IMG/VR virus record: IMGVR_UViG_3300031951_017423
Span: 1-41,469 of that record
Source: a virus
Direction: 5' to 3' (one strand)
Length of the DNA stretch: 41,469 nucleotides
In this document: positions 4,710 through 21,855 of the stretch, piece after piece
Position numbering within the stretch: the first letter of the stretch is position 1
Layout: each line of letters opens with the position of its first letter
The notes under the pieces: model-generated
What the model saw: only the letters and a program-made list of their open reading frames with translations
Databases searched by the model: none
What the model was told of the DNA's origin: nothing
Made by a program: the position numbers and the translations under genes

Positions 4710-5720
4710 ATGGTCAAGTTGGATTTTGATGATGTCTTAATTGTGCCACAATTTTCTGACATTACATCACGTAGTCAGGTAGATGTGACTACAACAATCC
4801 AAGGCAAGTGGGGTACATCCATCACGGGTGTCCCCATCATTGCTGCCAATATGGATGGTGTCGGTACATTTAGTATGCATCGCGCATTGAAGAAGTTTGA
4901 TATGTTTACTGCCATTACAAAACATCACATGTTAGATGATTGGATGGTGCAAGAAGATATCTCTCATGCCTTCTTAACAATTGGTATGAGTGATGATGAC
5001 CTGTGTAAGGCGTTGGATGTGTCACAATATATGCGTAACAAGGGATTGAAGCCGAAAATTGTCATTGATGTGGCGAATGGTTACATGAACACCTTCTATG
5101 ATTTCGTTTCGCGTGTGCGCGAGAGCATACCTGACGCCTTCATCATGGCAGGAACCGTAGTTACACCTGAGGCAGTTGAGCGTGTGATCCTGTCAGGCGC
5201 AGATTTAGCGCGCGTGGGCATTGGAACCGGTGCTGTATGTACTACACGGCGTGTTGCGGGTGTGGGTTATCCGCAATTTTCTGCTCTCATGGAGTGTGTT
5301 CCTGCTGCTGAAGGCGTAGGAGGCGGCGTTCAGAGCGACGGCGGGTGTGTTTTTCCTGGTGATTTCTCAAAAGCACTGGCCGTAGGAGCACAAATGGTGA
5401 TGGCAGGCAGTATTTTTGCCGGCCATGATGAGTCGGAACAAGAAATTCGTGATGGAAAAGTGACTTTTTACGGCATGAGCAGCCATGCAGCTCAACAAAA
5501 GCACAATCAAGTGAAAAATTACCGCGCTTCCGAGGGGCGTGTCGTACAAATTCCATACAAGGGACTAGTAGAACACACTGTTATTGACATTTTAGGCGGA
5601 ATTCGTTCAACATGTGCCTATATTGACGCGATAAATATCTCGGAAATGTCTGAAAAGGCACAATTCATCCAAGTAAACAATGTCCTTAACCGCTCTTTGG
5701 AGCAATATACGGTGCGATGA
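4710..5720 (+). CDS. guaC: GMP reductase (IMPDH/GMPR family)
   Basis: This 336-residue TIM-barrel protein starts LDFDDVLIVPQFSDITSRS and lacks CBS domains. The catalytic loop reads RVGIGTGAVCTTR with Cys177, followed by GVGYPQFSALMEC, SDGGCVFPGDFSKAL, and MAGSIFAGHDES, all closer to GMP reductase than to IMP dehydrogenase. The reaction is NADPH-dependent reductive deamination of GMP to IMP, so the enzyme would shift purine pools during infection. E. coli GuaC is 347 residues. It starts one base after the DsbA-like gene and overlaps a small downstream ORF at ATGA. Confidence 0.88.
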   Translation: MVKLDFDDVLIVPQFSDITSRSQVDVTTTIQGKWGTSITGVPIIAANMDGVGTFSMHRALKKFDMFTAITKHHMLDDWMVQEDISHAFLTIGMSDDDLCKALDVSQYMRNKGLKPKIVIDVANGYMNTFYDFVSRVRESIPDAFIMAGTVVTPEAVERVILSGADLARVGIGTGAVCTTRRVAGVGYPQFSALMECVPAAEGVGGGVQSDGGCVFPGDFSKALAVGAQMVMAGSIFAGHDESEQEIRDGKVTFYGMSSHAAQQKHNQVKNYRASEGRVVQIPYKGLVEHTVIDILGGIRSTCAYIDAINISEMSEKAQFIQVNNVLNRSLEQYTVR

Positions 5721-5824
5721 TGAAAATTGTAGATAAAATTGTTGATTGGCTTATCACAAAGTTGCTAGATTATAAATTTTACAGACAAAAAAAGAACAAT
5801 AACGATGAATTCATTTATCCATGA
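5720..5824 (+). CDS. 34-residue peptide between guaC and the methyltransferase
   Basis: ATG codons at 5717 and 5720 overlap the guaC stop, and the frame ends with TGA at 5822-5824 inside the ATG of the next gene (ATGA). The peptide begins MKIVDKIVDWLITKLLDYK, an amphipathic helix that could bind membrane, followed by a polar Lys/Asn tail. It fills what would otherwise be a 100-base gap. It may be a real microprotein or serve to couple translation into the methyltransferase. Confidence 0.55.
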   Translation: MKIVDKIVDWLITKLLDYKFYRQKKNNNDEFIYP

Positions 5825-6435
5825 AAACTGTTACAATAGCACCTGAAAGAATCATTCAATGGATGAATGTTATTCGTAGCTATCAACATGATTCTTCTAA
5901 ACAATATCGTATTTTAGAAAATTTTTGGGAGAGCCAAATTAAAAGTAAGGTTTGGTTAGTGGAAAATCTTTGTAATACCAACACTAAAAATTTTTCAAAC
6001 GTATACATATTCGGGGGATGGTACGGAATTCTATCACAAATGATAGTGGATACATATCCCCATGTGAAAGTTTTTTCTATTGACCAGGATCCTGAATGTA
6101 CAGCAATAGGAGCTGCATTATGTAATCATGATTCTAGAATAAACTTTATCACAGAAAAAATGGAAAATTTTTCTGATTATAGCGATGATTCTTTGGTAAT
6201 TAATACTTCAGTTGAACACGTAAACCAAAAAATTCTTGATACCTGGTATAGAAAAATACCCAATAATACTGTTATTGCTTTGCAAAGCAATAACTATTTT
6301 GATTGTGATGAACATGTTAATTGTGTAGACACGTTGGAAGAATTTTATGCGCCGTTCATTCTAATGAATGTTCGTATGACTGGATCTTTAGATTGTAAAC
6401 AATTTACTCGTTTTATGATTATAGGTGTGAAGTGA
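5821..6435 (+). CDS. SAM-dependent methyltransferase-like protein
   Basis: This 204-residue protein shows a class I methyltransferase core. Strand 1 and the glycine loop read NVYIFGGWYGILSQMI (about residues 60-75). An acidic residue at the end of strand 2 follows (KVFSIDQDPECTAIG). A motif-like SLVINTSVEHV then replaces the more common D/N-P-P motif. Such proteins occur in T4-like phages of aquatic bacteria without known substrate. It immediately precedes the radical SAM operon (35-base gap), so it may act in the same pathway, but nothing in the sequence fixes its target. Confidence 0.65.
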   Translation: MKTVTIAPERIIQWMNVIRSYQHDSSKQYRILENFWESQIKSKVWLVENLCNTNTKNFSNVYIFGGWYGILSQMIVDTYPHVKVFSIDQDPECTAIGAALCNHDSRINFITEKMENFSDYSDDSLVINTSVEHVNQKILDTWYRKIPNNTVIALQSNNYFDCDEHVNCVDTLEEFYAPFILMNVRMTGSLDCKQFTRFMIIGVK

Positions 6436-6453
6436 TTTTTTACTGTACAAACT

Positions 6454-6461
6454 TTTAAATA
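6454..6461 (+). promoter_or_regulatory. Possible degenerate late promoter before the radical SAM operon
   Basis: TTTAAATA differs at one position from the T4 late box TATAAATA and lies 9 bases before ATG 6471, in the only intergenic gap between the methyltransferase and the radical SAM genes. In AT-rich DNA this could be chance. Confidence 0.25.
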
Positions 6462-6470
6462 TGTGCACTC

Positions 6471-8021
6471 ATGACTATAGAATATCATAATAGCGCAGAA
6501 ATAATGCGTGAAAAATTGAATGGTGTAAGTTCCTCAATGTGTCTTGCAAAATGGCTTCAGGTTTCTCTACATTTGCCTCAAGGAAGAACACAGAGTTGCT
6601 ATCACCCGCCCACACATTCCATCCCGGTTGAACTTTTGAAAAAGAATCCGGGTGTGTTACATAATACACCTCAAAAAATTGAAGAACGACGGATGATGAT
6701 GGAGGGAAAACGTCCTGCTGGTTGTTCTTATTGTTGGAAAATGGAAGATGCACCCGGCGGAGGTGTAGAGGGGCATATGAGCGACCGTCATTATAGAAGT
6801 AGTGAATGGTGGGCTGCACCTGTATTTGATGAGGTTGTGAAAAATGGGGCTGAATGGGATGTGTCGCCAAGATATGTTGAGGTAAACTTCAATCAAGCCT
6901 GTAATTTCAAGTGTATGTACTGCAGCCCGCATTTAAGTACCACCTGGCATGATGAAGTCAAAACATTTGGTCCCTATGCATTGAAAAATTTTGAACACAA
7001 TGATGTTAAGGCGTTAGAAAATATGAATTTGATGCCTTTGGACGTTGCACAGAAAGATAATCCGTATGTTCAGGCATTTTGGGACTGGTGGCCACAAATT
7101 TATCATAATCTCCGTGTATTTCGAATGACGGGCGGCGAACCTTTAATGGATGCCAATACCTATAAGGTTCTAGACTATGTTAACAATCACCCCCATGGAC
7201 AGATAGAGTTATCCATTACTTCTAACATGTGTCCTCCGCGTCAAGAATTATTTGAAAAATTCATGAGCACAGTTAAAGACATGGAAACCATCCGTGTTTT
7301 TGAAGATACACACAACGTAAATCCTGAAACGAATAACAACTGGTATATTCAATCTGCCTTCAAACACTTCATGTTATTTGTGAGTTGTGATGGTTATGGT
7401 GAGCAAGCTGAGTATATGCGTCATGGTATGGAATTTCCAAGATTACTGAATAATGTGAGAACGTTTTTGAGAGAAACACGACATACAAGTGTAAGTTTCA
7501 TCAATACATTCAATATTCTCAGTATTCCTAGTTTGAAACAGTTTTTACAGATGATCCTAGACCTGCGCGAAGAATTTGGAGGTAAGCACCAACAAGATTA
7601 TGTTGTAGAAGTTGCTCCCACACACGGTGTTGTACATCCTCCTTTTGTAAAAAAGAAATTTCAGAGAATTTGGTTTGATATTCCAGTTCTTCGATATCCC
7701 ACATGGTTCATGATTCAAAATGCAGGACCGGAAGGTGTTGAAAAAATACAGGATATCATTAAATTCATGGAAGACAATGTTCAGGGTGAAGATTACTCCG
7801 AGACATTCACGGGATTCAAGCCATATGAAATTTTAAAGTTGAAGCGTAATCTAGCCTTGATGGAGGAAGGTATAGATAGTCAACAACTTCGTGACAATAA
7901 AGAAAACTTTTATCGTTTCATTCAAGAACACGATAAGAGAAGAAATACAAATTTTGTGAAAACCTTCCCAGAATACGAACAATTCTTTTTAGAATGTAAA
8001 CATGAGGCATACAATAGATGA
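6471..8021 (+). CDS. Twitch-domain radical SAM protein 1
   Basis: This 516-residue protein contains the radical SAM cluster motif C144-x3-C148-x2-C151 (CNFKCMYC) and the SAM-contacting MTGGEPLMD. Before the barrel is a cysteine region: C24 in CLAKW, a SCYHPP motif and CSYCWKMED. This fits an N-terminal twitch domain binding an auxiliary Fe-S cluster. The C-terminus ends with HDKRRNTNFVKTFPE, a D/H-x-x-R-R...F-P-E motif shared with most paralogues here. Twitch and SPASM radical SAM enzymes modify peptides, sugars or cofactors by radical chemistry; the substrate here is unknown. It belongs with proteins 2 and 7 by its CxxKW and SCHHPP-type features. It overlaps the next gene at ATGA. Confidence 0.88.
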   Translation: MTIEYHNSAEIMREKLNGVSSSMCLAKWLQVSLHLPQGRTQSCYHPPTHSIPVELLKKNPGVLHNTPQKIEERRMMMEGKRPAGCSYCWKMEDAPGGGVEGHMSDRHYRSSEWWAAPVFDEVVKNGAEWDVSPRYVEVNFNQACNFKCMYCSPHLSTTWHDEVKTFGPYALKNFEHNDVKALENMNLMPLDVAQKDNPYVQAFWDWWPQIYHNLRVFRMTGGEPLMDANTYKVLDYVNNHPHGQIELSITSNMCPPRQELFEKFMSTVKDMETIRVFEDTHNVNPETNNNWYIQSAFKHFMLFVSCDGYGEQAEYMRHGMEFPRLLNNVRTFLRETRHTSVSFINTFNILSIPSLKQFLQMILDLREEFGGKHQQDYVVEVAPTHGVVHPPFVKKKFQRIWFDIPVLRYPTWFMIQNAGPEGVEKIQDIIKFMEDNVQGEDYSETFTGFKPYEILKLKRNLALMEEGIDSQQLRDNKENFYRFIQEHDKRRNTNFVKTFPEYEQFFLECKHEAYNR

Positions 8022-9568
8022 CTAGACGTTCAGATGAAAACTTCTTAGAATTCAAGAAACGAATGATTGATAGTGTCAGCCCAAGTTTCTGTGCTGCCAA
8101 ATGGTATAATGCAACCATTTGGTTGGGACATGGACAGACTACAAGTTGTCACCATCCTCCTGGTCATAACATTGATGTCGCAGAATTGGAAGCAAATCCT
8201 TCTGCCATTCACAACACAAAACATAAAAAGCTAATGCGTAAGTACATGCAAGAAGGTACACGCCCAGCAGAATGTGAGTATTGTTGGAAGGTGGAAGATA
8301 TCGGAAGAAACAATGTCTCTGACCGAGTATACAAAACAGAAATTTACAAGGATGCGGACATTCTTCGTGCCAGTACAATGAATTGGCAGGATGATGTTAC
8401 GCTTCGTACACTAGAAATTTCTTTTGAACGGACTTGTAATTTTGCATGTTCATATTGTAACCCTGCCTTCTCAACAACCTGGGTGAAAGACATTAAAACT
8501 TTAGGTCCATATAGAAATATTGTAAGTGATGGACGAGGACATTTCATTGATGTTGCACCCTGGGCTCAAGGATATCGTCACGAGGATGAGAATCCGTATG
8601 TCAAGGCATTTTGGCGTTGGTGGGAATCAGATTTGGCAGATAATCTTGAAGAAATCCGTATCACAGGCGGCGAACCTTTGATGGCACCGTCAGTCTGGAA
8701 GTTATTTGATTGGTTCAAGCAAAATCCGGAACGTGGTAGAAATATGCGATTTGCCATGAACTCAAATCTTGTACCGAAAAAACAAGAAACACTGGACAAG
8801 TTGATTGAGGCTAGTCATCATGTACCTCGTTTTCAAATTTACACTTCAAATGAATCAGTGGGTAAACATTCCGAATATATTCGTGATGGTATGAAATATG
8901 AGGAATGGAAGAACAACTTACATCGGTTAATTTCTGAGGGTAATCTTGAAAGTTTACATATGATGATGACCATTAACAGCCTGTGTTTATCATCAATCAC
9001 AGAATTTATGGATGATATGTTTGAGTTCAAGAGAAAATATGGTCGTCAGTACATGAACATGTCATTAAACATTCTTCGTTTCCCATCATTTCAAAGTGCA
9101 GCTGTACTGCCCAAAGACATGAAGGAGAAATTCCGTGATAAACTTCGAATTTGGCTTGATGCTGTTCTTGTGAAAGGAGAGAAGGATATGAACGGTCTCA
9201 CACTATTAAGCCCATGGGAGCAAGCTCATGTGGAGCGACTAATTGATTATCTTGATAGTGTTGACACACCACATAAAAATACTGCCGAGAAGGACATGTT
9301 GTATAATGATTTCAAAAATTTCTACTTACAATATGATGTGCGTCGAGGAAAAAATTTCCGTGAAACATTTCCGAAGGAATTTGTAGACTTCATTGATAGT
9401 ATTGATGTTCCGGTGCCAACAGAAGATGAAATCAAGAATAATCGGTATCGTAAGGAATTAAATGTTATACATGACATGGCAGGAGATCCTGCCACTACGG
9501 CAGGATATGATGAAGATACATCTCATGGATGGAATACCCTCAAGGATGAGTTAGGAGCCAATGAGTAA
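8018..9568 (+). CDS. Twitch-domain radical SAM protein 2
   Basis: It has 516 residues, the same length as protein 1, and is clearly its paralogue: FCAAKW near the start, TTSCHHPPGHNID, PAECEYCWKVED, and the radical SAM motif C140-x3-C144-x2-C147 (CNFACSYC). These are followed by NPYVKAFWRWWES, RITGGEPLMA and the end motif DVRRGKNFRETFPKE. The C-terminal ~50 residues beyond that motif are an acidic extension absent from most other copies. Start ATG 8018 overlaps the previous stop. Two adjacent paralogues of one length suggest tandem duplication followed by divergence, since the sequences differ widely. Confidence 0.88.
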   Translation: MTRRSDENFLEFKKRMIDSVSPSFCAAKWYNATIWLGHGQTTSCHHPPGHNIDVAELEANPSAIHNTKHKKLMRKYMQEGTRPAECEYCWKVEDIGRNNVSDRVYKTEIYKDADILRASTMNWQDDVTLRTLEISFERTCNFACSYCNPAFSTTWVKDIKTLGPYRNIVSDGRGHFIDVAPWAQGYRHEDENPYVKAFWRWWESDLADNLEEIRITGGEPLMAPSVWKLFDWFKQNPERGRNMRFAMNSNLVPKKQETLDKLIEASHHVPRFQIYTSNESVGKHSEYIRDGMKYEEWKNNLHRLISEGNLESLHMMMTINSLCLSSITEFMDDMFEFKRKYGRQYMNMSLNILRFPSFQSAAVLPKDMKEKFRDKLRIWLDAVLVKGEKDMNGLTLLSPWEQAHVERLIDYLDSVDTPHKNTAEKDMLYNDFKNFYLQYDVRRGKNFRETFPKEFVDFIDSIDVPVPTEDEIKNNRYRKELNVIHDMAGDPATTAGYDEDTSHGWNTLKDELGANE

Positions 9569-10949
9569 GATTCTTCCAATCTGGCAACATGGCCAGCTGG
9601 ATCCTGAGAGTCCAAATAAAGTATTTTGTATGGCACCTTGGACACACACCTACATCTCCCCGCAAGGAGAACGTAGGTTGTGTTGTGCCAGCCGTGAGGA
9701 ACATAGTTTTCAAAAACAATACATTGATGCATCAAATGATGAACGATATGGTGAAGTAAAAGCATCAAAAACATCAGCAGATGATTTCAATCCTGTGTCA
9801 CTTAAGGAACACTGGAATAGTGAGTACATGAAGGATATTCGTAAAAAACTCATGGCAGGTGAACGTATCCCTCAGTGTGATGTATGTAACGATGACATTT
9901 TGAGTGTTAGTAGTTATCGTAAATGGTTCACGGGTGCGTTATTTCAACACAAGATTCAAGAGGCATTTACCAAGACGGATGAAACAGGATTCACAACTAT
10001 GGAACCCATTTCATTTGATTATCGGTACTCTAACATTTGTAATTTCAAATGTAGAATGTGTGGTGAACAGCTTAGTTCATCCTGGGAGGCTGAAAAGAAG
10101 AAACATGGGTTCTGGACACCTGAACACCAGCCCTTCATGATTCCTGAAGTCAAAGAGAAGATGCAGAAATTCCAGATTGATGTTGTGGAGCCTGAATTTC
10201 GTGATGCCATTTCTCGCGGCATTGTTGAGGAATGTTACTGGGTCGGAGGGGAACCGCTGATGTATGAGATACATTGGTGGGCATTGGAGGAAATGATTAA
10301 AAACGGTAGTGCAAAAAATTGTTATCTTCGATATAATAGCAATTTAAGTCGTGTGGAATACTATGGCAAGAACTTATATGACTATCTCCCACAATTTAAA
10401 GATTGGTTGATGTGTGCCAGTATTGATGGCACGGGCGACATTGTTGAATATATTCGTAAAGGTATTAAATGGGATATATGGTTAAACAATTTCAAACAAG
10501 GTTTACAAATTCCAGGTGGTCAAGATAGAATGTTGTTTGACTTGACTATTACAGGACCAGGCATGTTTGCATTAAAAGATTTGTTTGATTTATCATTGGA
10601 ATTAAATGTGCGTATTGAAACAAAAATTATGTTTGCATTTCATCCCGATATTGTGTTGAGTCCTTTTGCATGGCCACGACATATTCTAGATAGAAAAATT
10701 GACGAACTATTGGCATATATGACACCTCGGGCAACAGGTAAAAGCTACTCACTAATAAACACGTTAAACGAGATGAAGAAGCGCCCGACCTTCCAGGAAC
10801 AATTTTCAGATGCCGAAGAAAAATTCTTTAATGGAAGAAATTGGCATCGACAATTAGATAAAGTTCGCGGAGAACTATATACTATCGAAGATATTTACAA
10901 ACAGGATACAGAATTATATGACTGGTGGAATAGACAATCCGTACGGTAA
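9561..10949 (+). CDS. Twitch-domain radical SAM protein 3
   Basis: This 462-residue protein has FCMAPW near the start, a CC pair in ERRLCCASREE, CDVCNDD, the cluster motif C160-x3-C164-x2-C167 (CNFKCRMC) and VGGEPLMYE. The CxxPW...CC pattern groups it with proteins 4, 5 and 6 rather than 1, 2 and 7. Its insert between N-terminal cysteines and barrel is long, and its C-terminus lacks a clear RRG...FPE motif. It starts 8 bases inside the upstream gene with AGGAGCC as ribosome site. Substrate unknown. Confidence 0.87.
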   Translation: MSKILPIWQHGQLDPESPNKVFCMAPWTHTYISPQGERRLCCASREEHSFQKQYIDASNDERYGEVKASKTSADDFNPVSLKEHWNSEYMKDIRKKLMAGERIPQCDVCNDDILSVSSYRKWFTGALFQHKIQEAFTKTDETGFTTMEPISFDYRYSNICNFKCRMCGEQLSSSWEAEKKKHGFWTPEHQPFMIPEVKEKMQKFQIDVVEPEFRDAISRGIVEECYWVGGEPLMYEIHWWALEEMIKNGSAKNCYLRYNSNLSRVEYYGKNLYDYLPQFKDWLMCASIDGTGDIVEYIRKGIKWDIWLNNFKQGLQIPGGQDRMLFDLTITGPGMFALKDLFDLSLELNVRIETKIMFAFHPDIVLSPFAWPRHILDRKIDELLAYMTPRATGKSYSLINTLNEMKKRPTFQEQFSDAEEKFFNGRNWHRQLDKVRGELYTIEDIYKQDTELYDWWNRQSVR

Positions 10950-12084
10950 AATTTGCTCATTGCCTTGGAAACATTTGGCCACACATCCTCACGGTGGTTG
11001 TACATTGTGTTGCATTTCAGACCACACAGGTGGAGCAAGTCGAGCAAGAAATTTTCAAGGAGATAAGGTTGAGTGGCTTTCGTTAAACACGAACAGCATC
11101 AATGAAATCATGAATAGTGATTATTATCGTCAGGTTCGTTTAGAAATGTTAAACGGTGTTGAACCCGCTTCATGTAAACGCTGTTATGATGATGAGCGCA
11201 TGGGACTACGAAGTAAACGAATTGAAGAAAATGAGCGATATTTTTCTGATGATATTGTAGAACACACTAACTCTGACGGTACTATTTCCCTTGACTTTGA
11301 ATTCATCGAACTTCGCTTGGGTAATGTGTGTAATCTTCGATGCCGAACATGTAATCCTGCAAGTAGTACCAAATGGATACGCGACCATAAAATGTTAGAA
11401 CATAAACTTTCGTTCGTCACGAAATATGGAGATATTGAACGTGGCACATGGTATGAGAGTGATACCTTCTGGGATGATTTGCTATCTCATTCACACAATG
11501 TTAAAAGAATATACATTAATGGAGGAGAACCCACATTAATTAAAAAACATTTTTCCTATCTTGAAAAACTCATTGAGACCGGATTAAATAATAATATTGA
11601 ACTTTGGTACAATTTAAATCTCACTAATGTTGATGATGAATTATTAGCCTACTGGAAACAATTCAAGAAGTGTACTATAAGTGCAAGCATAGATGATTTG
11701 GGAGAAAGAAATGAATACATCAGAACCAATAGTGTGTGGGAAACAACGTTGGCAAATCTACGGAAATTAAAACAGGAATCCTGGATAGAATTAAGTGTCG
11801 TACAAACTGTTAGCCTATATAATATTGAACATATAGCTGAATTTTATGATTTTATAGTTCATCAAGAAAAAATTCCAATACACATAAACTGGGTTTATGA
11901 TCCAGTATTTCAACAAGCATGGCATCTAGAAGAACATAAAAAGAGTGTTATAATAGAGCAGTGTCGGAACATCATGTACTCATGGGATTTCGATAATGTA
12001 AAAAATCATTTGTCAAAACCTAGCATAGAAAGTATGCGAGAAAAATTCATAACCTTTAACAGTGTATTAGATGAACATGTTTAA
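10918..12084 (+). CDS. Twitch-domain radical SAM protein 4
   Basis: This 388-residue protein, smaller than the first three, has ICSLPWKHLATHP, a TLCCISD pair, CKRCYDDE, and the radical SAM motif C138-x3-C142-x2-C145 (CNLRCRTC), then YINGGEPTLI. ATG 10918 places the first cysteine at residue 13 and overlaps gene 3 by 32 bases. No later in-frame start would keep the N-terminal motif. CNLRCRTC is identical to that of protein 5, so 4 and 5 are probably the closest pair. Substrate unknown. Confidence 0.86.
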   Translation: MTGGIDNPYGKICSLPWKHLATHPHGGCTLCCISDHTGGASRARNFQGDKVEWLSLNTNSINEIMNSDYYRQVRLEMLNGVEPASCKRCYDDERMGLRSKRIEENERYFSDDIVEHTNSDGTISLDFEFIELRLGNVCNLRCRTCNPASSTKWIRDHKMLEHKLSFVTKYGDIERGTWYESDTFWDDLLSHSHNVKRIYINGGEPTLIKKHFSYLEKLIETGLNNNIELWYNLNLTNVDDELLAYWKQFKKCTISASIDDLGERNEYIRTNSVWETTLANLRKLKQESWIELSVVQTVSLYNIEHIAEFYDFIVHQEKIPIHINWVYDPVFQQAWHLEEHKKSVIIEQCRNIMYSWDFDNVKNHLSKPSIESMREKFITFNSVLDEHV

Positions 12085-13309
12085 CAAAGAGCTATTAAAA
12101 GAAAGTAAAAGATTTTGTTTAATACCGTGGATACATATGCATACATGGCCTAACGGCAACACATACATGTGTTGTACATCTGACCCACAAACTCCGTTAG
12201 GGGTTCTTTCTAAAGAAAATTCTTTGAAGCATCTATGGAATTCACCTCAAATGAAAAAGAATCGTTTAGCAATGTTAAACGATGAATATGTTCCTGAATG
12301 CAGCAGATGCTACGAGATAGAAGAATTTGGTGGTAATAGCCTTCGCACTGACATAACTCGTAATTTTTTCCATCACATTGATAAAGTAGATGAGACTTTA
12401 GAAGATGGCACAGTTGAGAAGATGAATCTTCCCTATGTTGATTTTAGATTTAGTAATTTTTGTAATTTACGGTGTAGAACATGTGGCCCTGAGCTTAGTA
12501 GTAAGTGGGCATTAGACCATAATACTCTTTTAGGCAAACCTGCGGGAAGTGTTGTTGTAACTAAACCCGATATTCCCAGGGAAATTTTTTGGGAACAGAT
12601 AGAAGAAATAATACCTACAATAGAAAGTGTGTATTTTGCTGGCGGTGAGCCCTTACTGATGGAAGAGCACTATAAATTTTTAAATCTTTTAATTGAACAC
12701 AACAAAACAAATATCAATCTGATATATAACACCAATTTATCTAATGTTGTATTTAAAAATACACATATCTGTGATTATTGGAAGAAATTTGATAAAGTTG
12801 TTGTACTAGCTTCTTTAGATTCATGGGGTCCCAGAGCGGAGTACATTAGAAAAGGACTGACTTGGTCCAAAGCAGAAAAAAATATTCGTGATATTAAAAC
12901 ATTAACTCCACATGTCGAATTTATTATTGGTGTAACGTTGAGCGTTTTTAATTTTGCAACCTTAGTTGAGTACTATGATTACATGATAGATAATAATTTT
13001 ATTTCATATGATAATATGAATATAAACATTGTAACTGATCCTCTTTGGTATAAAGCAAATGTTGTTCCTTTAGATTTTCGTTTACAGGTAGCAGAAAAAT
13101 ATCAGGAAAAAATTGACTTTCTCACGAAAAATAAACTTTGTGGTAAGACCATGTTAGATAGATGGGAATTGGCTAAAAATTATATTACTGCTCCCTTTGA
13201 CGCAGTAAATCATGAGCAGTTTATAAGCCTCACTAAACATCTAGATAAGATTAGAAAGGAATCTTTTACCTCTACATTTCCTGAATTGAGTTTTATGTTT
13301 CATGAGTAA
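12071..13309 (+). CDS. Twitch-domain radical SAM protein 5
   Basis: This 412-residue protein has FCLIPWIHMHTWP, MCCTSDP, CSRCYEIEEFGG, the motif C131-x3-C135-x2-C138 (CNLRCRTC), FAGGEPLLME and a final LDKIRKESFTSTFPE. The EEFGxxS segment after the N-terminal cysteines is shared with protein 6. The DNA from here to 15430 is more AT-rich by eye than genes 1-3, hinting at a separate origin or weaker selection on codon use. It overlaps protein 4 by 14 bases and protein 6 by 8 bases. Confidence 0.87.
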   Translation: MNMFNKELLKESKRFCLIPWIHMHTWPNGNTYMCCTSDPQTPLGVLSKENSLKHLWNSPQMKKNRLAMLNDEYVPECSRCYEIEEFGGNSLRTDITRNFFHHIDKVDETLEDGTVEKMNLPYVDFRFSNFCNLRCRTCGPELSSKWALDHNTLLGKPAGSVVVTKPDIPREIFWEQIEEIIPTIESVYFAGGEPLLMEEHYKFLNLLIEHNKTNINLIYNTNLSNVVFKNTHICDYWKKFDKVVVLASLDSWGPRAEYIRKGLTWSKAEKNIRDIKTLTPHVEFIIGVTLSVFNFATLVEYYDYMIDNNFISYDNMNINIVTDPLWYKANVVPLDFRLQVAEKYQEKIDFLTKNKLCGKTMLDRWELAKNYITAPFDAVNHEQFISLTKHLDKIRKESFTSTFPELSFMFHE

Positions 13310-14498
13310 AACATTTTGTATTCTTCCATTTGTGCATTTAGAGGCACGGTCGGACAGTTTTGTTGCACCTTGCTGTATGAGTCAAGAATTTTATACAAAG
13401 GATACAGGAGAATTTTTTTCCCTTAGTAAAGACACCTTATCAGATGTATGGAATTCTTCTTCTATCCGAAATTTAAGAACTTCTCTATTAGAAGGTAAAA
13501 AACCCACTGCCTGTGCTGCCTGTTGGAAGGAAGAAGAATTTGGTAAAGAAAGTAAAAGAATACGTGAAAATAAAAGATGGAATATAAATCACGAAACTTT
13601 TACACCAGAAAGAATTAACTCAGAAAATACTGTATGTGAGATAAAATTTCTTGACCTCAAATTAGGTAACACATGTAATTTAAAATGTAGAATTTGTAGC
13701 CCAGGTAGTTCTAGTAATTGGGTAAAGGAACATAAGGATATATATGGTTCTGACATAGTTACTGATATTGGACAAAAAGTAAACGCAGATAGAAAGCAAG
13801 TAATGCAATGGCCTGATTATAATGAAAATTTTTGGACCGATTTGAATACTATATTACCTAATGTTGAGTTATTTGAAATATATGGGGGAGAACCTTTCTT
13901 AATCTCCCGCCATTTTCAAGTATTACAAAAAAGTATTGAGATGGGATATAGTAAAAAACAAAAGATACACTATAATACCAACGGAACTATTTTCCCTGAA
14001 ATAGCTGTAAAGGAAATCTGGCCACATTTTGAGGATGTGGATATTATGCTAAGTATTGATGGAATCGGACCACAATTTGAGTATCAACGATATCCTGCCA
14101 AGTGGGATAGTGTTTTGAATAACATTCAAAGATTTAAAAATGAATTTTCAGGAAGAACGCAAATTTGTCTAACCGTCAGTTCCATTAATGTATTTTATCT
14201 ACCTGAGTATCTTGAATTTTTTCAATCACAAGAAATACCTGTTTGGTTAAACATTTTATATCACCCTGAGGTTCTTTCAATTGTAAATCTTTCTTCATTC
14301 GCTAAGGATAAAATTAGTGAGAAAATCAATAAGTACACGCATTTAAATACTGACCTTACTTCCGTATTAAATTTTATGAATGCTGAAGGTAAGAATCTAG
14401 AACAGGAATTCATTCACAAAATGAAAACTCATGATGAATACCGTAAACAAAATTATGCTTCTGTGTTTGAGGAATTTTCAAACATATTGACACTATGA
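13302..14498 (+). CDS. Twitch-domain radical SAM protein 6
   Basis: This 398-residue protein has FCILPFVHLEA, APCCMSQEF, CAACWKEEEFGKES, the motif C125-x3-C129-x2-C132 (CNLKCRIC) and EIYGGEPFLI. A weakened end motif (HDEYRKQNYASVFEEF) corresponds to the RRG...FPE element of its relatives. All catalytic cysteines are present, so it should bind the SAM-cleaving 4Fe-4S cluster. Its stop overlaps the SGNH-like gene at ATGA. Confidence 0.87.
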   Translation: MSKTFCILPFVHLEARSDSFVAPCCMSQEFYTKDTGEFFSLSKDTLSDVWNSSSIRNLRTSLLEGKKPTACAACWKEEEFGKESKRIRENKRWNINHETFTPERINSENTVCEIKFLDLKLGNTCNLKCRICSPGSSSNWVKEHKDIYGSDIVTDIGQKVNADRKQVMQWPDYNENFWTDLNTILPNVELFEIYGGEPFLISRHFQVLQKSIEMGYSKKQKIHYNTNGTIFPEIAVKEIWPHFEDVDIMLSIDGIGPQFEYQRYPAKWDSVLNNIQRFKNEFSGRTQICLTVSSINVFYLPEYLEFFQSQEIPVWLNILYHPEVLSIVNLSSFAKDKISEKINKYTHLNTDLTSVLNFMNAEGKNLEQEFIHKMKTHDEYRKQNYASVFEEFSNILTL

Positions 14499-15430
14499 AA
14501 AAGAAACTGTTAATAACGCTAGGATGTAGTTTTACCGAAGGAGTTGGTGCATACGATTTGAATAAAATTCCTTCTGTCCATCGTCCAAACAATATTGGAA
14601 ATGATTTTGTTGTAGAGAGATACAAATTGTATAGACCAAGATTTCATATGCATAGTTGGTCTCGTTATTTACAAAAGAGTCTAAATTATGATGTGTTGAT
14701 AAATTTGGGGTTAGGAGGTTCTAGTGATTCAAATGCAATTAAACGATTTATAGAAGTATTTGATGAAAATTCTTTATCTGAAAATTATGATGTATTAGTT
14801 GTATGGGGTCTTACTTTTCCTGAAAGAATATCATTCTATAAAGATGGTAAAAATGTTAGTATATTACCTGGGTATAAACATGGCGACACCAATCACTATT
14901 CACTCGGTGTCTCTTATAATAATTTTACCCAAAATAATATATTGGATCATTTTCTAGAACAAATTTTCCATGTCAAAACCATGAGAAATTTATGTAACCG
15001 TTATAGTTTCAACTTCTTATATTTTTCTATGTTTAATTTTAAAACGAATATTCCAACTAATCTTGCTGAACTACATACTAAATATTTTTCACACGATGAG
15101 TACTTAAATTCCTATCTTCCGGATTCAAATTTTTTGTTAAAAAATAATGAATATAAAAATATATCTGATGCTGATATCACAACTATGGATAAATTTAAAA
15201 GATTTTTCCCTTCTGTTGAAGAAATGTTTCGTGTAGGAATGTTATCACCTGTATGTGGTCATCCCAATGAATATGGATATAGATTCTTATCCCATAGATT
15301 ATTTTCTATAATAGAACAAAAATTTCCACAATATGTAAATCATAACACTCCGGATTTTTTCAGTAGCCTATACTGGGGTGAACCTTCAACTTGGGTGGGT
15401 ATTTTACCCTACCAACAAACTATCAAATAG
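14495..15430 (+). CDS. SGNH/GDSL hydrolase-like protein
   Basis: This 311-residue protein opens with ITLGCSFTEGVG, where Ser12 fits the block I nucleophile (GxSxT/G). LGLGGSSDSN supplies the block II/III glycine region, and GHPNEYGYRFLS near the C-terminus takes the place of the block V catalytic H motif. SGNH enzymes are esterases or O-acetyl hydrolases/transferases. The gene interrupts the run of radical SAM genes without a break in coupling, so it likely works on the same product or substrate, perhaps adding or removing an acyl group. Its DNA is AT-rich like the adjacent radical SAM genes 5 and 6. Confidence 0.7.
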   Translation: MKKKLLITLGCSFTEGVGAYDLNKIPSVHRPNNIGNDFVVERYKLYRPRFHMHSWSRYLQKSLNYDVLINLGLGGSSDSNAIKRFIEVFDENSLSENYDVLVVWGLTFPERISFYKDGKNVSILPGYKHGDTNHYSLGVSYNNFTQNNILDHFLEQIFHVKTMRNLCNRYSFNFLYFSMFNFKTNIPTNLAELHTKYFSHDEYLNSYLPDSNFLLKNNEYKNISDADITTMDKFKRFFPSVEEMFRVGMLSPVCGHPNEYGYRFLSHRLFSIIEQKFPQYVNHNTPDFFSSLYWGEPSTWVGILPYQQTIK

Positions 15431-15439
15431 ATTGTAAAA

Positions 15440-16732
15440 ATGCAAAAAGAGTTTAAAGTTTTTCCTATTAAAACTAATACAGCATGCCAGTTCAAATGGA
15501 CCTGGAGTACATTATTTCTTTCTGAGGGGTCTTCCTCTAGTTGTCATCGCTGTCATGGGTGGGATGTGTCTGATGATATCCAAAACTTCCATAATCATCC
15601 GGATAAAATAAAGGATAGAGAAAAGATGTTGGCCGGTGAATGGCCAGGTAACGGCTGTGAATATTGTAAGACAATTGAAGATGCAGGGGGTGCCAGTGAA
15701 AGAACTTCTTTTATTAATGATTTAGACCTTGTCCCTAAAGAATTGTTTGATGTTCCTGATGCCACTCACGTTACTCCTAGAATTCTGGAAGTATACTTCA
15801 CCAATGTTTGTAATCAAAAGTGTGTTTATTGCTCGCCATTCTTCAGTTCATTAATTCAGAATGAAATTGAACGCTTTGGTCCCATTGAAGCTGAATATGA
15901 CCTGATGGGATTCAAAAGTAGAGAAGGATATGAACATAGAAAAGAAGAATTCTGGAAGTGGATGGATAAACATTCTACCGACTTATATCATTTTCAAATT
16001 TTGGGCGGAGAACCTATGTACCAACCTGAATTTGAAGAATGTCTATCATTTTTTGAGGCTAGACAACATCCAAATACCAATTGGAAAATATTTAGTAACT
16101 TAAAGCATGATCCCGCACAGTTTAAGAAAAAAATTGAACGTGTGGGTACATTAATTGATAGCGGAAAATTACAATCATTTGAAATTGTGTGTAGTATGGA
16201 TTGTTGGGGCCCTGAAGCAGAGTTTGCTCGATATGGTATGAGTTTAGATGAGTGGAAAACTAACTTTGAAACACTAATGACTTCACCTCACGTTAGAGTT
16301 TCTGTCCATTCTACTATCACGCCATTAACCTTGCCTACTATGGCAGAATTTTATAGTTTTTTAAATGACTGGAAAAAAACAAAATATATCAATTACGGTT
16401 GGAATATTGTTGTGACACCATCATTTATGGACCCATGTATTATTGGCCATCATGCAACAAAATATTTTGATGACCTTATAGAACAAATACCTGTTGAGGA
16501 GTTCCCTAGAAAAAATTATCTAGATGGTTTTAAGCAAAAGGTAGTGAAACATGACATTGATCCTGTTCGCCTACGTAAGTTGTGGGATTATTTGGATAAA
16601 ATAGATGTTAGACGAGGAACCGATTGGAAAGCAATTTATCCTTGGTTATATAACATTTGTGTTGAGCATGCAAAAGATATTAAACTCAACCATGTTGATA
16701 ACATAGAACTGATTAGTTTGAAAAAGAAATGA
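15440..16732 (+). CDS. Twitch-domain radical SAM protein 7
   Basis: This 430-residue protein has ACQFKWTWS, a SSCHRCHGW region, CEYCKTIEDAGG, the motif C124-x3-C128-x2-C131 (CNQKCVYC), QILGGEPMYQ and the end motif DVRRGTDWKAIYPW. The CxxKW start and the DVRRG ending tie it to proteins 1 and 2, although it is separated from them by four other-type paralogues and the SGNH gene. It begins 9 bases after the SGNH stop and overlaps the carbamoyltransferase at ATGA. Confidence 0.87.
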   Translation: MQKEFKVFPIKTNTACQFKWTWSTLFLSEGSSSSCHRCHGWDVSDDIQNFHNHPDKIKDREKMLAGEWPGNGCEYCKTIEDAGGASERTSFINDLDLVPKELFDVPDATHVTPRILEVYFTNVCNQKCVYCSPFFSSLIQNEIERFGPIEAEYDLMGFKSREGYEHRKEEFWKWMDKHSTDLYHFQILGGEPMYQPEFEECLSFFEARQHPNTNWKIFSNLKHDPAQFKKKIERVGTLIDSGKLQSFEIVCSMDCWGPEAEFARYGMSLDEWKTNFETLMTSPHVRVSVHSTITPLTLPTMAEFYSFLNDWKKTKYINYGWNIVVTPSFMDPCIIGHHATKYFDDLIEQIPVEEFPRKNYLDGFKQKVVKHDIDPVRLRKLWDYLDKIDVRRGTDWKAIYPWLYNICVEHAKDIKLNHVDNIELISLKKK

Positions 16733-18183
16733 TAATCTGGGGTATATCTGCCAATAGCCATGATGCTGCCATCTCTGTGGTCCAAGATGGCGAAATCTTG
16801 TATGCATCACAATCTGAACGATATTCAGGAATAAAAAATGATGCTCATTTAAATCCGGGCATTGTTACAGACGCCAAACGATATGGTGAGCCTGATGTTG
16901 TTGTGTGGTATGAGAATCCTTGGCTGAAAACGTTACGGCAACTTCGTGCAGGACAAGGATGGATCAATAATAGTATTAGAGGGTATCTAAACAAATACAA
17001 CATCACGGCACCCGTCACTACTGTAGGACATCACCATAGTCATGCAGCGGGAGGATATTATACCTCCCCATTTAAAGAAGCGGCTGTATTAGTAATTGAT
17101 GCCATCGGTGAGTTTGACACCACAACCATTTGGCATGGCACAGATAACAATCTAACAAAGAAATTCTCTGTTAAATATCCACATAGTTTAGGGTTGTGGT
17201 ATTCAGCCATGACCCAACGAATAGGATTAAAACCCAATGAAGAAGAATATATTCTCATGGGCATGGCGGCATATGGGGATCCTTTGAAGTATACCCCAAT
17301 GATTTTGGAAGATTTCTTTGATAGCAGAGACATTTTGAAGTTGAATGATAATCTTCATCGAGGATGCATGAACTGGCGCCCTGAATTGAAATCTCAACAA
17401 GACTTGTATGATATTGCCGCGGCAACACAATTTGTCTACGAACTATATTTTCATGATTTAGTAGATAAGGCACAAAAACTCACAGGAAGTAAAAACTTAG
17501 TGTTGGGTGGCGGGTGTGCCTTGAATTGTGTTGCCAATAATATTGCCTTCCAATATTTTGAGAATGTCTGGATTATGCCAAATCCAGGCGATGCAGGAAA
17601 TAGTCTCGGTGCCATTGCTGCTCATCAACAAGAATTCTTGAACTGGCGTGGTCCCTATCTTGGATTTGATATGGGTGTGAAATATCCCACGGGACAATTG
17701 ATTGAAACACTACAGAAAGATGGCATTACAGGTGTGGCATTTGGTCGTGCAGAATTTGGTCCTCGTGCTTTAGGACATAGAAGTTTATTGGCTGATCCTC
17801 GCGGTGATGACATCAAGGATAAGGTGAATGTCATCAAGAAACGACAGAAGTTCCGTCCCTTTGCACCTGCCATTCTTGCCGAACATGCCCATGAGTATTT
17901 TCACATGCCTACTATGGAAAGTCCCTATATGCAATACACGGCATTGTGCAAACATCCTTTACAATTCCCTGCCATTGTACACGCAGATGGGACATCTCGC
18001 GTACAAACGGTTTCTCAAAAGGATTCACCCTACTTTCATAGTTTCTTACAAGAATGGTACAAAGAAACTGGATGCCCGATGATTTTAAATACCAGTTTAA
18101 ACATTAAAGGTAAACCTATGGTGAACAACCGCATTGATGCTATAGAGTTTTCCAAACGATATTCGGTGCCTGTACATACTTGA
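16729..18183 (+). CDS. Carbamoyltransferase, NodU/TobZ/CmcH family
   Basis: This 484-residue protein has the two-domain carbamoyltransferase layout. The N-terminal Kae1-like domain shows SHDAAI (H11), GHHHSHAAGG (H101-H105), VIDAIGEFD (D124) and a nucleotide loop LGGGCALNCVANN. The C-terminal YrdC-like domain shows FGRAEFGPRALGHRSLLADPR, FRPFAPAILAE and ILNTSLNIKG. These enzymes use carbamoyl phosphate and ATP, via carbamoyladenylate, to carbamoylate hydroxyls of sugars or antibiotics; phage versions have also been linked to base or glycan modification. As last gene of the coupled radical SAM operon it likely decorates the operon's product. Its C-terminus ends soon after the DAIEF segment, slightly shorter than usual. 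Its stop lies inside the next promoter. Confidence 0.88.
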   Translation: MIIWGISANSHDAAISVVQDGEILYASQSERYSGIKNDAHLNPGIVTDAKRYGEPDVVVWYENPWLKTLRQLRAGQGWINNSIRGYLNKYNITAPVTTVGHHHSHAAGGYYTSPFKEAAVLVIDAIGEFDTTTIWHGTDNNLTKKFSVKYPHSLGLWYSAMTQRIGLKPNEEEYILMGMAAYGDPLKYTPMILEDFFDSRDILKLNDNLHRGCMNWRPELKSQQDLYDIAAATQFVYELYFHDLVDKAQKLTGSKNLVLGGGCALNCVANNIAFQYFENVWIMPNPGDAGNSLGAIAAHQQEFLNWRGPYLGFDMGVKYPTGQLIETLQKDGITGVAFGRAEFGPRALGHRSLLADPRGDDIKDKVNVIKKRQKFRPFAPAILAEHAHEYFHMPTMESPYMQYTALCKHPLQFPAIVHADGTSRVQTVSQKDSPYFHSFLQEWYKETGCPMILNTSLNIKGKPMVNNRIDAIEFSKRYSVPVHT

Positions 18184-18208
18184 CAAACCACAATGAATGA
18201 TGTATATT
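18180..18208 (+). promoter_or_regulatory. Sigma70-like promoter for DNA ligase
   Basis: TTGACA (18180-18185), exactly 17 bases, then TATATT (18203-18208) followed by ACA, the same architecture and -10 context as the UVDE promoter at 2811. The TGA stop of the carbamoyltransferase is part of the -35 box. Expected start is near 18215. Confidence 0.75.
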
Positions 18209-18241
18209 ACATATAGACTCTTAAACGAGGATATATCATTC

Positions 18242-19534
18242 ATGGTGAACCAAATCTTTGAGCAACTTGCCGCGACTACCAGCCGCCTAGAAAAAGAAGC
18301 CATTCTTAAGGAACACCTTGCGGACCTAACACTCCGCAAGGTGTTATTTCTTGCTCTTGATCCATATACACAGTTTTACATTCGACGCATCATGCCATAT
18401 AAGACGGGCGTGAGAAACACCCATATCACACTTACACAAGCATTGGATGAATTGGAAAAGTTTTCTTCTCGGACCTTGACGGGAAATGCAGCATTTCATC
18501 ATCTTCACTGGATCCTGGAATCTCTTGATGCCGATGATGCCAAGGTGATTGAACGTGTCATTGAAAAGGATTTGAGGTGTGGGGTGTCTGAGGCTACAGT
18601 AAACAAGATTTGGCCTAACTTGATTCCCACATATCCTGTCATGTTGGCATCTGGATTTGATGAGAAAATCATGAATAAAATGACCTATCCCGCCTATGTG
18701 CAATTGAAGTTGGATGGGATGCGATTCAATGCCATCGTGGAAAATGGTAAAGTGGACTTTCGTTCACGAAACGGTAAGCAAATTGATTTGCTTGGAAATC
18801 TTGAAGCCGAGTTTCTACAATTGGCAGGTGAACTCCCTGTGGTGTTTGATGGTGAATTGGTTGTGAGAGAACGTTCTGGCAATATCATGAACCGTCAGAA
18901 AGGTAATGGCATCTTAAACAAGGCGGTAAAGGGTACCGTCTCTGAGAACGAAGCTGGTATGGTGGAAGCTGTGGTCTGGGATATCATTCCTTTGGATCAT
19001 TTCAAGCAAGGTGAGTCCAAATGTTCCTATGAGTCGCGCTTTCAAATTCTTGAAGCAATGGAGATGCCTGAACGTGTTTCATTGATTGAAAATATTGAAG
19101 TCATTTCAGAGGATGAGGCTCATCATTTGTTCGAGGAATATTTCGCCAAGGGAGAGGAAGGTATCATTCTCAAGGACATCACCAAGGGATGGGAAGATAA
19201 GCGCGTAAAGCATCAAGTGAAGTTCAAGGGTGAGTTGGAATGTGACCTTCGTTGTGTGGATTGGCAAGAAGGTACGGGGAAAAATGTGGGAAGATTGGGG
19301 GCACTGGTACTAGAATCTGCTGACGGCATCATTCAGGTGAATGTTGGGTCAGGATTCACAGATGAACAGCGTGATAAATATACAAAGAGTAATACTGTAG
19401 GCAAGATTGTTGCCGTCAAGTATAACGCACGTATTTGTGACAAAAAGACCAACGTGGAAAGTCTATTTCTACCGGTTTTTCTTGAATTACGTGAGGATAA
19501 GAGTGTTGCTGATTCGTCAACCATTATTAAATGA
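18242..19534 (+). CDS. 30: ATP-dependent DNA ligase (T4 gp30 type)
   Basis: This 430-residue ligase has the adenylation motif KLDGMR with K156 as the AMP-accepting lysine, RSRNGKQIDLL (motif III region), FDGELVV (motif IIIa), EEGIILK (motif IV) and VKHQVKFKGE (motif V). The N-terminal ~140 residues form a helical DNA-binding region, and the size is close to T4 gp30. It seals nicks in replication and repair. I place the start at ATG 18242, after ACGAGG, rather than at the in-frame ATG 18197, because 18197 lies inside the promoter spacer upstream of the predicted transcription start. Confidence 0.92.
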   Translation: MVNQIFEQLAATTSRLEKEAILKEHLADLTLRKVLFLALDPYTQFYIRRIMPYKTGVRNTHITLTQALDELEKFSSRTLTGNAAFHHLHWILESLDADDAKVIERVIEKDLRCGVSEATVNKIWPNLIPTYPVMLASGFDEKIMNKMTYPAYVQLKLDGMRFNAIVENGKVDFRSRNGKQIDLLGNLEAEFLQLAGELPVVFDGELVVRERSGNIMNRQKGNGILNKAVKGTVSENEAGMVEAVVWDIIPLDHFKQGESKCSYESRFQILEAMEMPERVSLIENIEVISEDEAHHLFEEYFAKGEEGIILKDITKGWEDKRVKHQVKFKGELECDLRCVDWQEGTGKNVGRLGALVLESADGIIQVNVGSGFTDEQRDKYTKSNTVGKIVAVKYNARICDKKTNVESLFLPVFLELREDKSVADSSTIIK

Positions 19535-21542: not shown

Positions 21543-21544
21543 TG

Positions 21545-21552
21545 TATAAATA
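21545..21552 (+). promoter_or_regulatory. T4-type late promoter for the tmRNA gene
   Basis: Exact TATAAATA three bases after the nuclease stop codon. Predicted transcription start is near 21558, which agrees with the 5' boundary expected for the acceptor part of the tmRNA precursor. Confidence 0.7.
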
Positions 21553-21557
21553 GTATT

Positions 21558-21843: not shown

Positions 21844-21855
21844 ATTCCCCTTTCT

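Follow-up and report, generated by a model that had tools for sequence, protein, structure and literature searches.

Why would a phage carry seven different radical S-adenosylmethionine (SAM) enzymes side by side? The question is raised by the IMG/VR virus record IMGVR_UViG_3300031951_017423, whose 41,469 bases are the whole stretch of DNA analysed here (the window). An annotation scan finds T4-like parts in it (a single-strand binding protein, baseplate and tail-lysozyme genes and a T4 baseplate family protein), and its + strand encodes seven radical SAM enzymes between positions 6471 and 16732. Their genes sum to 9,387 bp, in agreement with the investment of about 9 kb given in an original prediction for this locus. 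Arrays of this type, as we found, are not confined to this record: dozens of uncultured phages have one, and so does a bacterial chromosome.

Layout of the array and its cysteine motifs

All seven proteins score above the curated cut-off (170 bits, a whole-protein score) of the family NF033640 (N_Twi_rSAM, hereafter N_Twi), with 301, 308, 323, 333, 395, 355 and 224 bits for genes 1 to 7, and no further match to this family was found elsewhere in the record. In a Pfam scan PF04055 exceeded its own cut-off in four of the seven, genes 1, 6 and 7 falling below it. The genes are located at 6471-8021 (gene 1), 8018-9568 (gene 2), 9561-10949 (gene 3), 10918-12084 (gene 4), 12071-13309 (gene 5), 13302-14498 (gene 6) and 15440-16732 (gene 7), and the junctions from gene 1 to gene 6 are overlaps of 4, 8, 32, 14 and 8 nt, values that are inflated by the use of the longest open reading frame (ORF) for each start. 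The coupled row of seven twitch radical SAM genes that had been predicted is thus borne out, except that the prediction had omitted an eighth, SGNH-like gene (14495-15430, +), which shares 4 nt with the end of gene 6 and is separated from gene 7 by 9 nt. Gene 7 in turn overlaps a carbamoyltransferase gene (16729-18183, +) by 4 nt. The N_Twi scores, together with the presence of gene 5 at 100% identity on four other IMG/VR contigs, one of which is 124 kb long (the twin contig), indicate that the array is not a product of chance. Genes 5 and 6 and the SGNH-like gene (window 12071-15430) have a GC content of 0.30-0.33, clearly lower than the 0.39 of genes 1-3, which suggests a mosaic row.

The motifs CxxxCxxC and GGEP were found by motif scan in all seven genes, and all seven cluster cysteines are retained in each; dead copies, which the original prediction had also discounted, are therefore ruled out. 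The twitch part of the SPASM/twitch motif has been defined as CX9-15GX4C, a gap and CX2C (PMC6231123). Genes 1-5 and 7 carry CX12-13GX4C within their first 45 residues and CX2C 38-65 positions further on (in gene 1, CX13GX4C stands at 24, CxxC at 85, CxxxCxxC at 144 and GGEP at 221), and gene 6, which has Ser for the twitch Gly, keeps all four cysteines, so that the motif is exact in six of the seven. The SPASM family PF13186 was matched by residues 23-110 of gene 3 and 13-90 of gene 4. Whereas SPASM and twitch domains are described as C-terminal extensions of the radical SAM barrel (PMC9012708), the twitch cysteines of the window genes lie at residues 6-109 and the SAM cysteines at 124-167; judged by these motifs, the auxiliary-cluster domain is an N-terminal twitch, permuted with respect to the usual C-terminal one.

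Among 341 relatives, those of the window included, the three SAM cysteines are invariant; a full set of four twitch cysteines is present in 340, the remaining row having a gap. Alignment column 34, the ligand column, is Cys in 341 of 341. From this conservation one auxiliary cluster per enzyme is predicted. In the column after the second twitch cysteine, groups 3-6 have a further Cys, where groups 1, 2 and 7 mostly have Tyr or His; this corresponds to the distinction between 'CC' and 'SCHH' by which the original prediction had separated genes 3-6 (CxxPW in genes 3-5, CxxPF in gene 6) from genes 1, 2 and 7 (group A). The SCHHPP motif ascribed to the latter is present in gene 2 and nearly so in gene 1 (SCYHPP), but gene 7 reads SCHRCH; similarly, an end motif like DxRRGxxFxxTFPE, said to be shared by most of the genes, is closely approached in genes 1, 2 and 5 and partial in 3, 6 and 7, but absent from 4.

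Recurrence in phages and bacteria

Using the seven aligned genes, we searched IMG/VR and obtained at least 590 relatives, of which the best 80 loci were kept and confirmed against gene 5; with the window they make 81 loci, a sample that is not random and that favours group 5 by construction. Near-identical loci (L008-L011) and pieces of the window (L001-L007) were left out of the locus counts. At least three N_Twi genes (>120 bits) occur in 66 of the 81 loci, with a copy number of 1-9 per locus, so that in these phage loci the paralogues are not scattered singly; in bacteria a single copy is frequent (43 of the 73 bacterial loci with a match >120 bits). In Reichenbachiella faecimaris DSM 26133 one N_Twi gene passes the cut-off.

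A tree of the 341 proteins was divided into seven groups, the borders of which we drew after viewing it and some of which have weak support (0.70 for group 4 and 0.58 for group 5; groups 3 and 7 have 1.0). Group 1 comprises 63 proteins in 57 loci, group 2 39 in 38, group 3 27 in 27, group 4 12 in 12, group 5 88 in 73, group 6 39 in 36 and group 7 6 in 6, and 67 of the 341 proteins fall outside all seven. Groups 1-6 are mostly present once per locus, in 12-73 of the 81 loci, and group 7 in 6. Their order is nearly fixed: outside the window, in loci with one of each, gene 1 precedes gene 2 in 33 of 33 and gene 5 in 43 of 43, gene 2 precedes gene 5 in 31 of 31 and gene 5 precedes gene 6 in 24 of 26, although the loci are mutually related and these are not independent events. 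Gene 3 precedes gene 5 in just 3 of 23 loci, and the 3-4-5 order of the window is thus the rarer one. As had been noted, the sequences are far apart (the other six window genes are 22-33% identical to gene 5). The recurring and mostly single-copy groups, the near-fixed order and the cluster cysteines kept in 340 of 341 proteins support the earlier proposal that the paralogues would be old and kept apart for different jobs.

Genes 1, 2 and 7 belong to one clade (111 proteins in the 341-protein tree), with a support of 1.0 in the viral-only tree, 0.994 with bacterial proteins added and 99 in IQ-TREE, the last being a quick analysis, with long-branch warnings, of a hand-drawn sample of 73 proteins. 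Genes 3-6 form a single clade in the viral-only tree (0.998), but this support drops to 0 once bacterial proteins are added, and IQ-TREE places gene 3 beside the 1/2/7 clade at 92, again with a long-branch warning; genes 3-6 are therefore not one stable clade, and only the first of the two groups proposed from the N-terminal motifs survives as a lineage. Phylogeny had also been suggested as a check of whether the seven form one phage clade. They do not: a topology that holds the seven window genes together fails the approximately unbiased test (p-AU 2.8e-24), and genes 5 and 6 are sisters of proteins of the bacterial locus L099 (10001-11230 and 11223-12437, respectively), with supports of 0.997 and 0.998, and of 99 and 100 in IQ-TREE. 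The virus label changes at least 11 times on the starred branches of the 73-protein tree, where the ten bacterial members of the 1/2/7 clade are all Bdellovibrionota. On the evidence of these trees the N_Twi array is no phage-only expansion. A recent duplication within the phage was considered and is ruled out by the trees and the topology test.

The scan of bacterial genomes yielded 75 loci with N_Twi; some of these 'cellular' loci are phage contigs in metagenome-assembled genomes (MAGs), as in L113 and L125, and the cellular counts are upper bounds. The locus L099 (contig DIVA01000093.1 of a Bacteriovoracaceae MAG) has eight N_Twi genes and a few other ORFs between obg and lgt, which indicates a chromosomal location. 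Among the eight are genes 2-3-4-5-6, ordered as in the window, followed by a 1-like and a second 2-like gene. N_Twi exceeds the cut-off in 94 of 290 genomes of the phylum of this MAG, and in 1 of 61 of the phylum of a Paenibacillus genome, that one being the search centre itself. A Bdellovibrionota host is possible for the phage.

Three side observations concern other bacterial loci. An Elusimicrobia MAG (MJ-2014_bin-0981; locus L133 and other contigs) has several dozen N_Twi genes over the cut-off, an extreme expansion, and many of these lie in long ORFs with TPR-like repeats, read by eye, in front. Nucleotidyltransferase-like ORFs, also recognised by eye, stand beside bacterial N_Twi genes at 15733-16695 of L099 (without an NCBIfam match) and at 11151-12128 of L137. 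At 8256-19364 of the Paenibacillus locus L167, one N_Twi gene lies in what appears by eye to be a fatty-acid-synthase-like cluster.

Partner genes and the possible substrate

Partners were counted in 65 viral loci, including the window, with at least three N_Twi copies and at least 10 kb, and their names rest on single representatives or profiles. This neighbourhood survey, which the original prediction had called for, did return recurrent partners: G1 (41 loci), glycosyltransferase family 8 (GT8; 40), 'FT' (33), SGNH-like clusters (28, partly by eye), carbamoyltransferase (21), nucleotide-sugar dehydrogenase and epimerase (11 each), amidinotransferase (8), methyltransferase-like proteins (6) and, by eye, tail-fibre-like genes (27). 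A GT8, carbamoyltransferase, dehydrogenase or epimerase gene is found in 53 of the 65 loci. GT8 was identified by a profile match to glycogenin (E 9e-5), the amidinotransferase by matches to L-arginine:glycine (E 1e-14) and inosamine-phosphate (E 8e-13) enzymes, and the dehydrogenase and epimerase by NCBIfam matches below the curated cut-offs.

Single-sequence family searches with the SGNH-like gene gave no match, and a profile of its relatives (A4) was needed to relate it to the GDSL lipase 4rsh (E 6e-5); it contains GCSFTEG and GHP..YG blocks. An SGNH motif expression matched 22 of the 81 viral loci and missed bacterial cases, and a looser listing has GDSFTEG-type genes by N_Twi in L116, L142, L144, L152, L154 and L170. 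Neighbour scans of 34 of the 75 bacterial loci, chosen as longer and not phage-like, covered 134 near and 67 far proteins, of which 9 and 3 were dropped (L110 and L169 are near-copies of L109 and L157; one L101 protein). Within two genes on either side of N_Twi, GDSL_2 was the commonest family (12 of 125 proteins), followed by Radical_SAM (7) and Glycos_transf_2 (6), which provides a bacterial parallel for the SGNH-like gene of the array; for the 64 genes at least six positions away, GDSL is absent from the 25 families listed out of 88 and is not excluded beyond those.

The O-carbamoyltransferase (NodU/TobZ family; phrog_1601) contains both family domains, PF16861 (175 bits) and PF02543 (143 bits), and its nearest solved chains are the novobiocin enzyme, GdmN and TobZ (E 3e-40 to 5e-51 against the TobZ/NodU/GdmN chains), although it is shorter, at 484 aa against 576-702. 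Relatives occur in five of six N_Twi-bearing Bdellovibrionota-type genomes, a count made without a control set. In the MAG of L099 about 12 kb separate the array from such a relative, an interval that includes genes for a family-2 glycosyltransferase and a nucleotidyltransferase.

What do such enzymes have in common? We tentatively favour, with a confidence somewhat short of even, a sugar-tailoring pathway in which a sugar on a virion or host glycan would be oxidised stepwise and capped, in the manner of BtrN and TobZ. The latter enzyme carbamoylates a hydroxyl on an aminoglycoside sugar. A sugar is the simplest common substrate of twitch enzymes found together with TobZ-family, SGNH-like and methyltransferase-like proteins and, elsewhere, with amidinotransferase, nucleotide-sugar and glycosyltransferase genes. 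The twitch motif in six of seven genes, the conserved cysteines, the ordered groups, the GT8, SGNH and carbamoyltransferase partners, the GT8 pairing in Vibrio phage K566 (see below) and the GDSL_2 and Glycos_transf_2 neighbours in bacteria all support this reading. BtrN, the butirosin twitch dehydrogenase, has a four-cysteine-ligated twitch and performs a two-electron oxidation of a carbohydrate-like ring, its auxiliary cluster being the proposed acceptor (PMC9012708). The window genes resemble it in the radical SAM motif and one four-cysteine auxiliary site and the carbohydrate chemistry is taken over by analogy only, but the known enzymes have their twitch at the C-terminus (PMC9012708) and neither profile A2 nor gene 1 found a related solved chain among PDB chains, so that there is no sequence match to BtrN.

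In the sugar pathway each enzyme would make a 5'-deoxyadenosyl radical and would abstract a hydrogen, each at a different carbon of the sugar or oligosaccharide, with the second electron passing to the fully ligated auxiliary cluster, as proposed for BtrN, to give keto or epimerised sugars whose hydroxyls partner enzymes could then carbamoylate, acylate or deacylate, or methylate. The decorated glycan, on virion proteins or on the host surface, might alter adsorption, superinfection or recognition. An A-type Fe-S carrier (PF01521, 70.6 bits), encoded at the start of the near-identical 124-kb contig, about 0.9 kb before the window's start and about 7 kb before the array, may help to supply clusters. 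The multi-step radical modification pathway of the original prediction fits this scheme, the enzymatic steps of which we infer from sequence. For a phage, devoting some 9.4 kb to radical enzymes that consume SAM is costly, and the product should therefore matter. A broader proposal, which we regard as doubtful, is that T4-like phages and Bdellovibrionota share an undescribed biosynthetic system in which about seven permuted N-terminal-twitch enzymes would work one sugar unit position by position, followed by carbamoyl, acyl, amidino and methyl transferases, to give an aminoglycoside-like glycan disguising virions or the infected host. Should the sugar reading hold, radical carbohydrate chemistry would gain a new branch, marked by a permuted auxiliary domain, and one means by which phages rewrite surfaces would come to light; through the groups, their order and the bacterial twin, what was loosely 'many radical SAM genes' already becomes a defined set whose partners can be named.

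Several points weigh against a sugar. Twelve of the 65 array loci have none of the GT8, carbamoyltransferase, dehydrogenase and epimerase clusters. The model of the frequent partner G1 (predicted local distance difference test score, pLDDT, 66.9; predicted template modelling score, pTM, 0.46) gave no structural match at E <0.001, many of its weak top matches being sugar-nucleotide or glycosyl transferases, and Pfam and PDB searches gave no convincing relative of 'FT', which for that reason is not treated as a glycosyltransferase and is left out of the 53 loci. No GT8 was recognised near the array in the window, and the glycosyltransferase-like genes seen by eye in the twin contig are about 39-50 kb off, among tail-fibre-like genes. 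Some bacteria have a single N_Twi gene without an adjacent glycan gene, by eye (L162, L165). The A-type carrier is present in just 7 of 20 long array-bearing records, namely in six of the seven of at least 200 kb and in one of the 13 shorter ones, without an array-free control.

The predicted fold does not choose a sugar either. The AlphaFold model of gene 5 (pLDDT 82.5, pTM 0.80, poor at 128-166) aligns with radical SAM barrels already known, for the most part within residues 90-376. The 13 Foldseek matches with E <=0.001 are anSME and SuiB (peptide), which come first, GDGT-MAS (lipid) and viperin, and the sugar enzymes DesII and BlsE rank lower (E 2e-3 to 4e-3). VIA-align, in which the N-terminal part of gene 5 is barely covered, gives a tie between BlsE (Z 11.3, 3.8 Å, 212 residues) and anSME (Z 11.2, 3.9 Å, 220 residues). 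Since peptide enzymes rank above sugar ones and BlsE and anSME tie, the modelled fold gives no decision between sugar and peptide substrates; any leaning it has is towards anSME. BtrN is absent among the structure matches listed by Foldseek and VIA-align, which are radical SAM barrels in general.

The rank of anSME and SuiB would fit a reading in which the enzymes modify side chains or the backbone of a protein (tail fibres, or another virion or host protein), in the manner of SPASM/twitch peptide maturases, and the glycosyltransferases act on that same protein. Many SPASM enzymes belong to peptide-maturing pathways (PMC9012708), the tail-fibre-like genes of 27 of the 65 array loci could encode the target and N_Twi is fused, by eye, behind TPR-like repeats in the Elusimicrobia MAG. 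We nevertheless consider it unlikely: the junctions of -32 to +9 nt leave no room for a precursor gene inside the array (one may lie elsewhere), no recognised tail-fibre gene adjoins the array in the window, the tail-fibre-like genes of the twin contig being about 35-50 kb away by eye, and sugars or small molecules are what the carbamoyltransferase, the amidinotransferase and the nucleotide-sugar enzymes act on. Furthermore, a Pfam scan of the seven genes gave no PqqD-type (RRE) domain, though such a scan covers RRE types poorly. A distant protein target such as a tail fibre is possible. Quite unlikely, in our view, is a small molecule, lipid or acyl compound whose non-sugar scaffold would undergo several radical oxidations and then carbamoylation and acyl transfer. 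The closest solved carbamoyltransferases, the novobiocin enzyme and GdmN, act on natural products, the SGNH partners fit acyl chemistry and the N_Twi gene of the Paenibacillus fatty-acid-synthase-like cluster stands, by eye, behind a carrier-protein-like gene; yet GT8 and nucleotide-sugar genes are among the partners, and no ketosynthase or carrier protein was recognised by eye in the 45 largest partner clusters of the phage arrays, for which no profile search was made.

A role in hypermodifying the bases of phage DNA, in which hydroxymethylcytosine would be the acceptor of the carbamoyltransferase, is highly improbable. A 5-hydroxymethylcytosine carbamoyltransferase, most likely of phage, does exist (PMC8670742) and the record carries QueC-like genes, but the twin contig, itself a fragment, gave 0 matches to a thymidylate-synthase-type gene, and neighbours such as glycosyltransferases accompanied the carbamoyltransferases of unmodified contigs (PMC8670742). 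The bacterial twin block beside obg and lgt also indicates that the chemistry is not phage-only, and DNA modification by the carbamoyltransferase is disfavoured. Finally, there may be no ordered pathway at all: the array could be an accessory module open to exchange, its redundant enzymes maintained for gene dosage or simply carried along in a hypervariable region. The copy number of 1-9 per locus would agree with this, as would the hypervariable host-recognition clusters of pelagimyophages, where radical SAM cassettes were added in one of two near genomes (PMC7029224), and the five-gene module of Campylobacter phages CP220 and CPt10, called interchangeable and likely non-essential (PMC2853527). 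Against these precedents, the mostly single-copy groups, the fixed order and the conserved cluster cysteines make it very unlikely.

Related phages and neighbouring genes

Neither a megablast of window 5800-18200 against 50,697 phage records nor tblastn with gene 1, G1, GT8 and the tail-fibre-like protein (E 1e-5) gave a match. With gene 6, tblastn matched just 22 Vibrio phages and one marine virus fragment (20.8-26.4% identity), the Vibrio phages being of about 250 kb and 21-24% identical. In the cultured Vibrio phage K566 there are five long N_Twi matches, scoring 133-202 bits, of which two (202 and 192) pass the cut-off; two GT8 genes lie between or next to them, so that the GT8 pairing is repeated. 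For Vibrio phage QD01, whose host in culture is V. natriegens Vmax, the three long matches (132, 130 and 111 bits) all stay below the cut-off.

Clusters of radical SAM genes have been described in other phages. CP220 and CPt10 have 11-12 radical SAM proteins (11 in CP220) and a putative glycine amidinotransferase per module, and are in this respect like the window-type arrays (PMC2853527). Unlike the window, CP220 has no N_Twi over the cut-off: its best score is 30.9 bits against 170, from the core domain only, which rules out identity with its radical SAM genes. A T4-like marine genome combines 12 radical SAM genes with an A-type carrier, a link drawn in a 2017 paper (PMC5332604). This system and that of the pelagimyophages (PMC7029224) share with our arrays the T4-like phages, several radical SAM genes, GT8 genes and the A-type carrier, but the available portions of the two papers name no subfamily, orthologous groups or function, and they are likened by description only. 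Tail-fibre adjacency, a feature of the pelagimyophage host-recognition cluster, is not seen in the window, although 27 of the 65 array loci do hold tail-fibre-like genes by eye. The family name of NF033640 gives no function, and the window differs in having seven distinct members in one array. Radical-SAM-rich phages were thus already known; as far as the literature was searched, what is new is the resolution into groups, the permuted twitch, the twin block in bacteria and the company of SGNH-like and carbamoyltransferase genes, and the open-licence sources, in their available portions, report no function for phage N_Twi arrays.

In the window the array is preceded by an IMPDH-like and methyltransferase-like stretch and followed by the carbamoyltransferase and a DNA ligase. 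The methyltransferase-like protein directly upstream (5821-6435, +) has an NCBIfam methyltransferase match far below the cut-off (E 8e-4), belongs to a cluster of 12 loci including the window and is a probable member of the cassette; it resembles part of a 724-aa protein of L067, which also has G1-like repeats by eye. A P-loop kinase/cytidylyltransferase fusion (102-899, +; PF01467, PF01583) lies here 5.6 kb before the array, and a relative is found at most two ORFs behind the carbamoyltransferase in L014, L022, L024, L030, L032 and L060. At 4710-5720 there is an inosine monophosphate dehydrogenase (IMPDH)/GMP-reductase-like ORF by eye (phrog_9582, 'dehydrogenase'), and an adenylosuccinate synthetase-like gene (L092 345-1367; PF00709, 269 bits) lies just before or at the window's start; a rerouting of purines by these two is possible.

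The strongest terminator-like hairpin of the window, with 13 pairs, is located at 18312-18345, inside the start of the DNA ligase ORF. Terminator-like sites number 14, against 8.5 (standard deviation 3.3) in shuffles, and the 67 promoter matches, against 56.9 (standard deviation 8.0), are uninformative. Two related QueC-like/PP-loop ORFs, 26% identical, are present at 1114-1629 and 21856-22434, and the twin contig has ORFs that look, by eye, QueE-, QueD- and FolE-like. The phage record also carries a transfer-messenger RNA gene (window 21536-21888) with the tag DNNYMSFATSYALAA.

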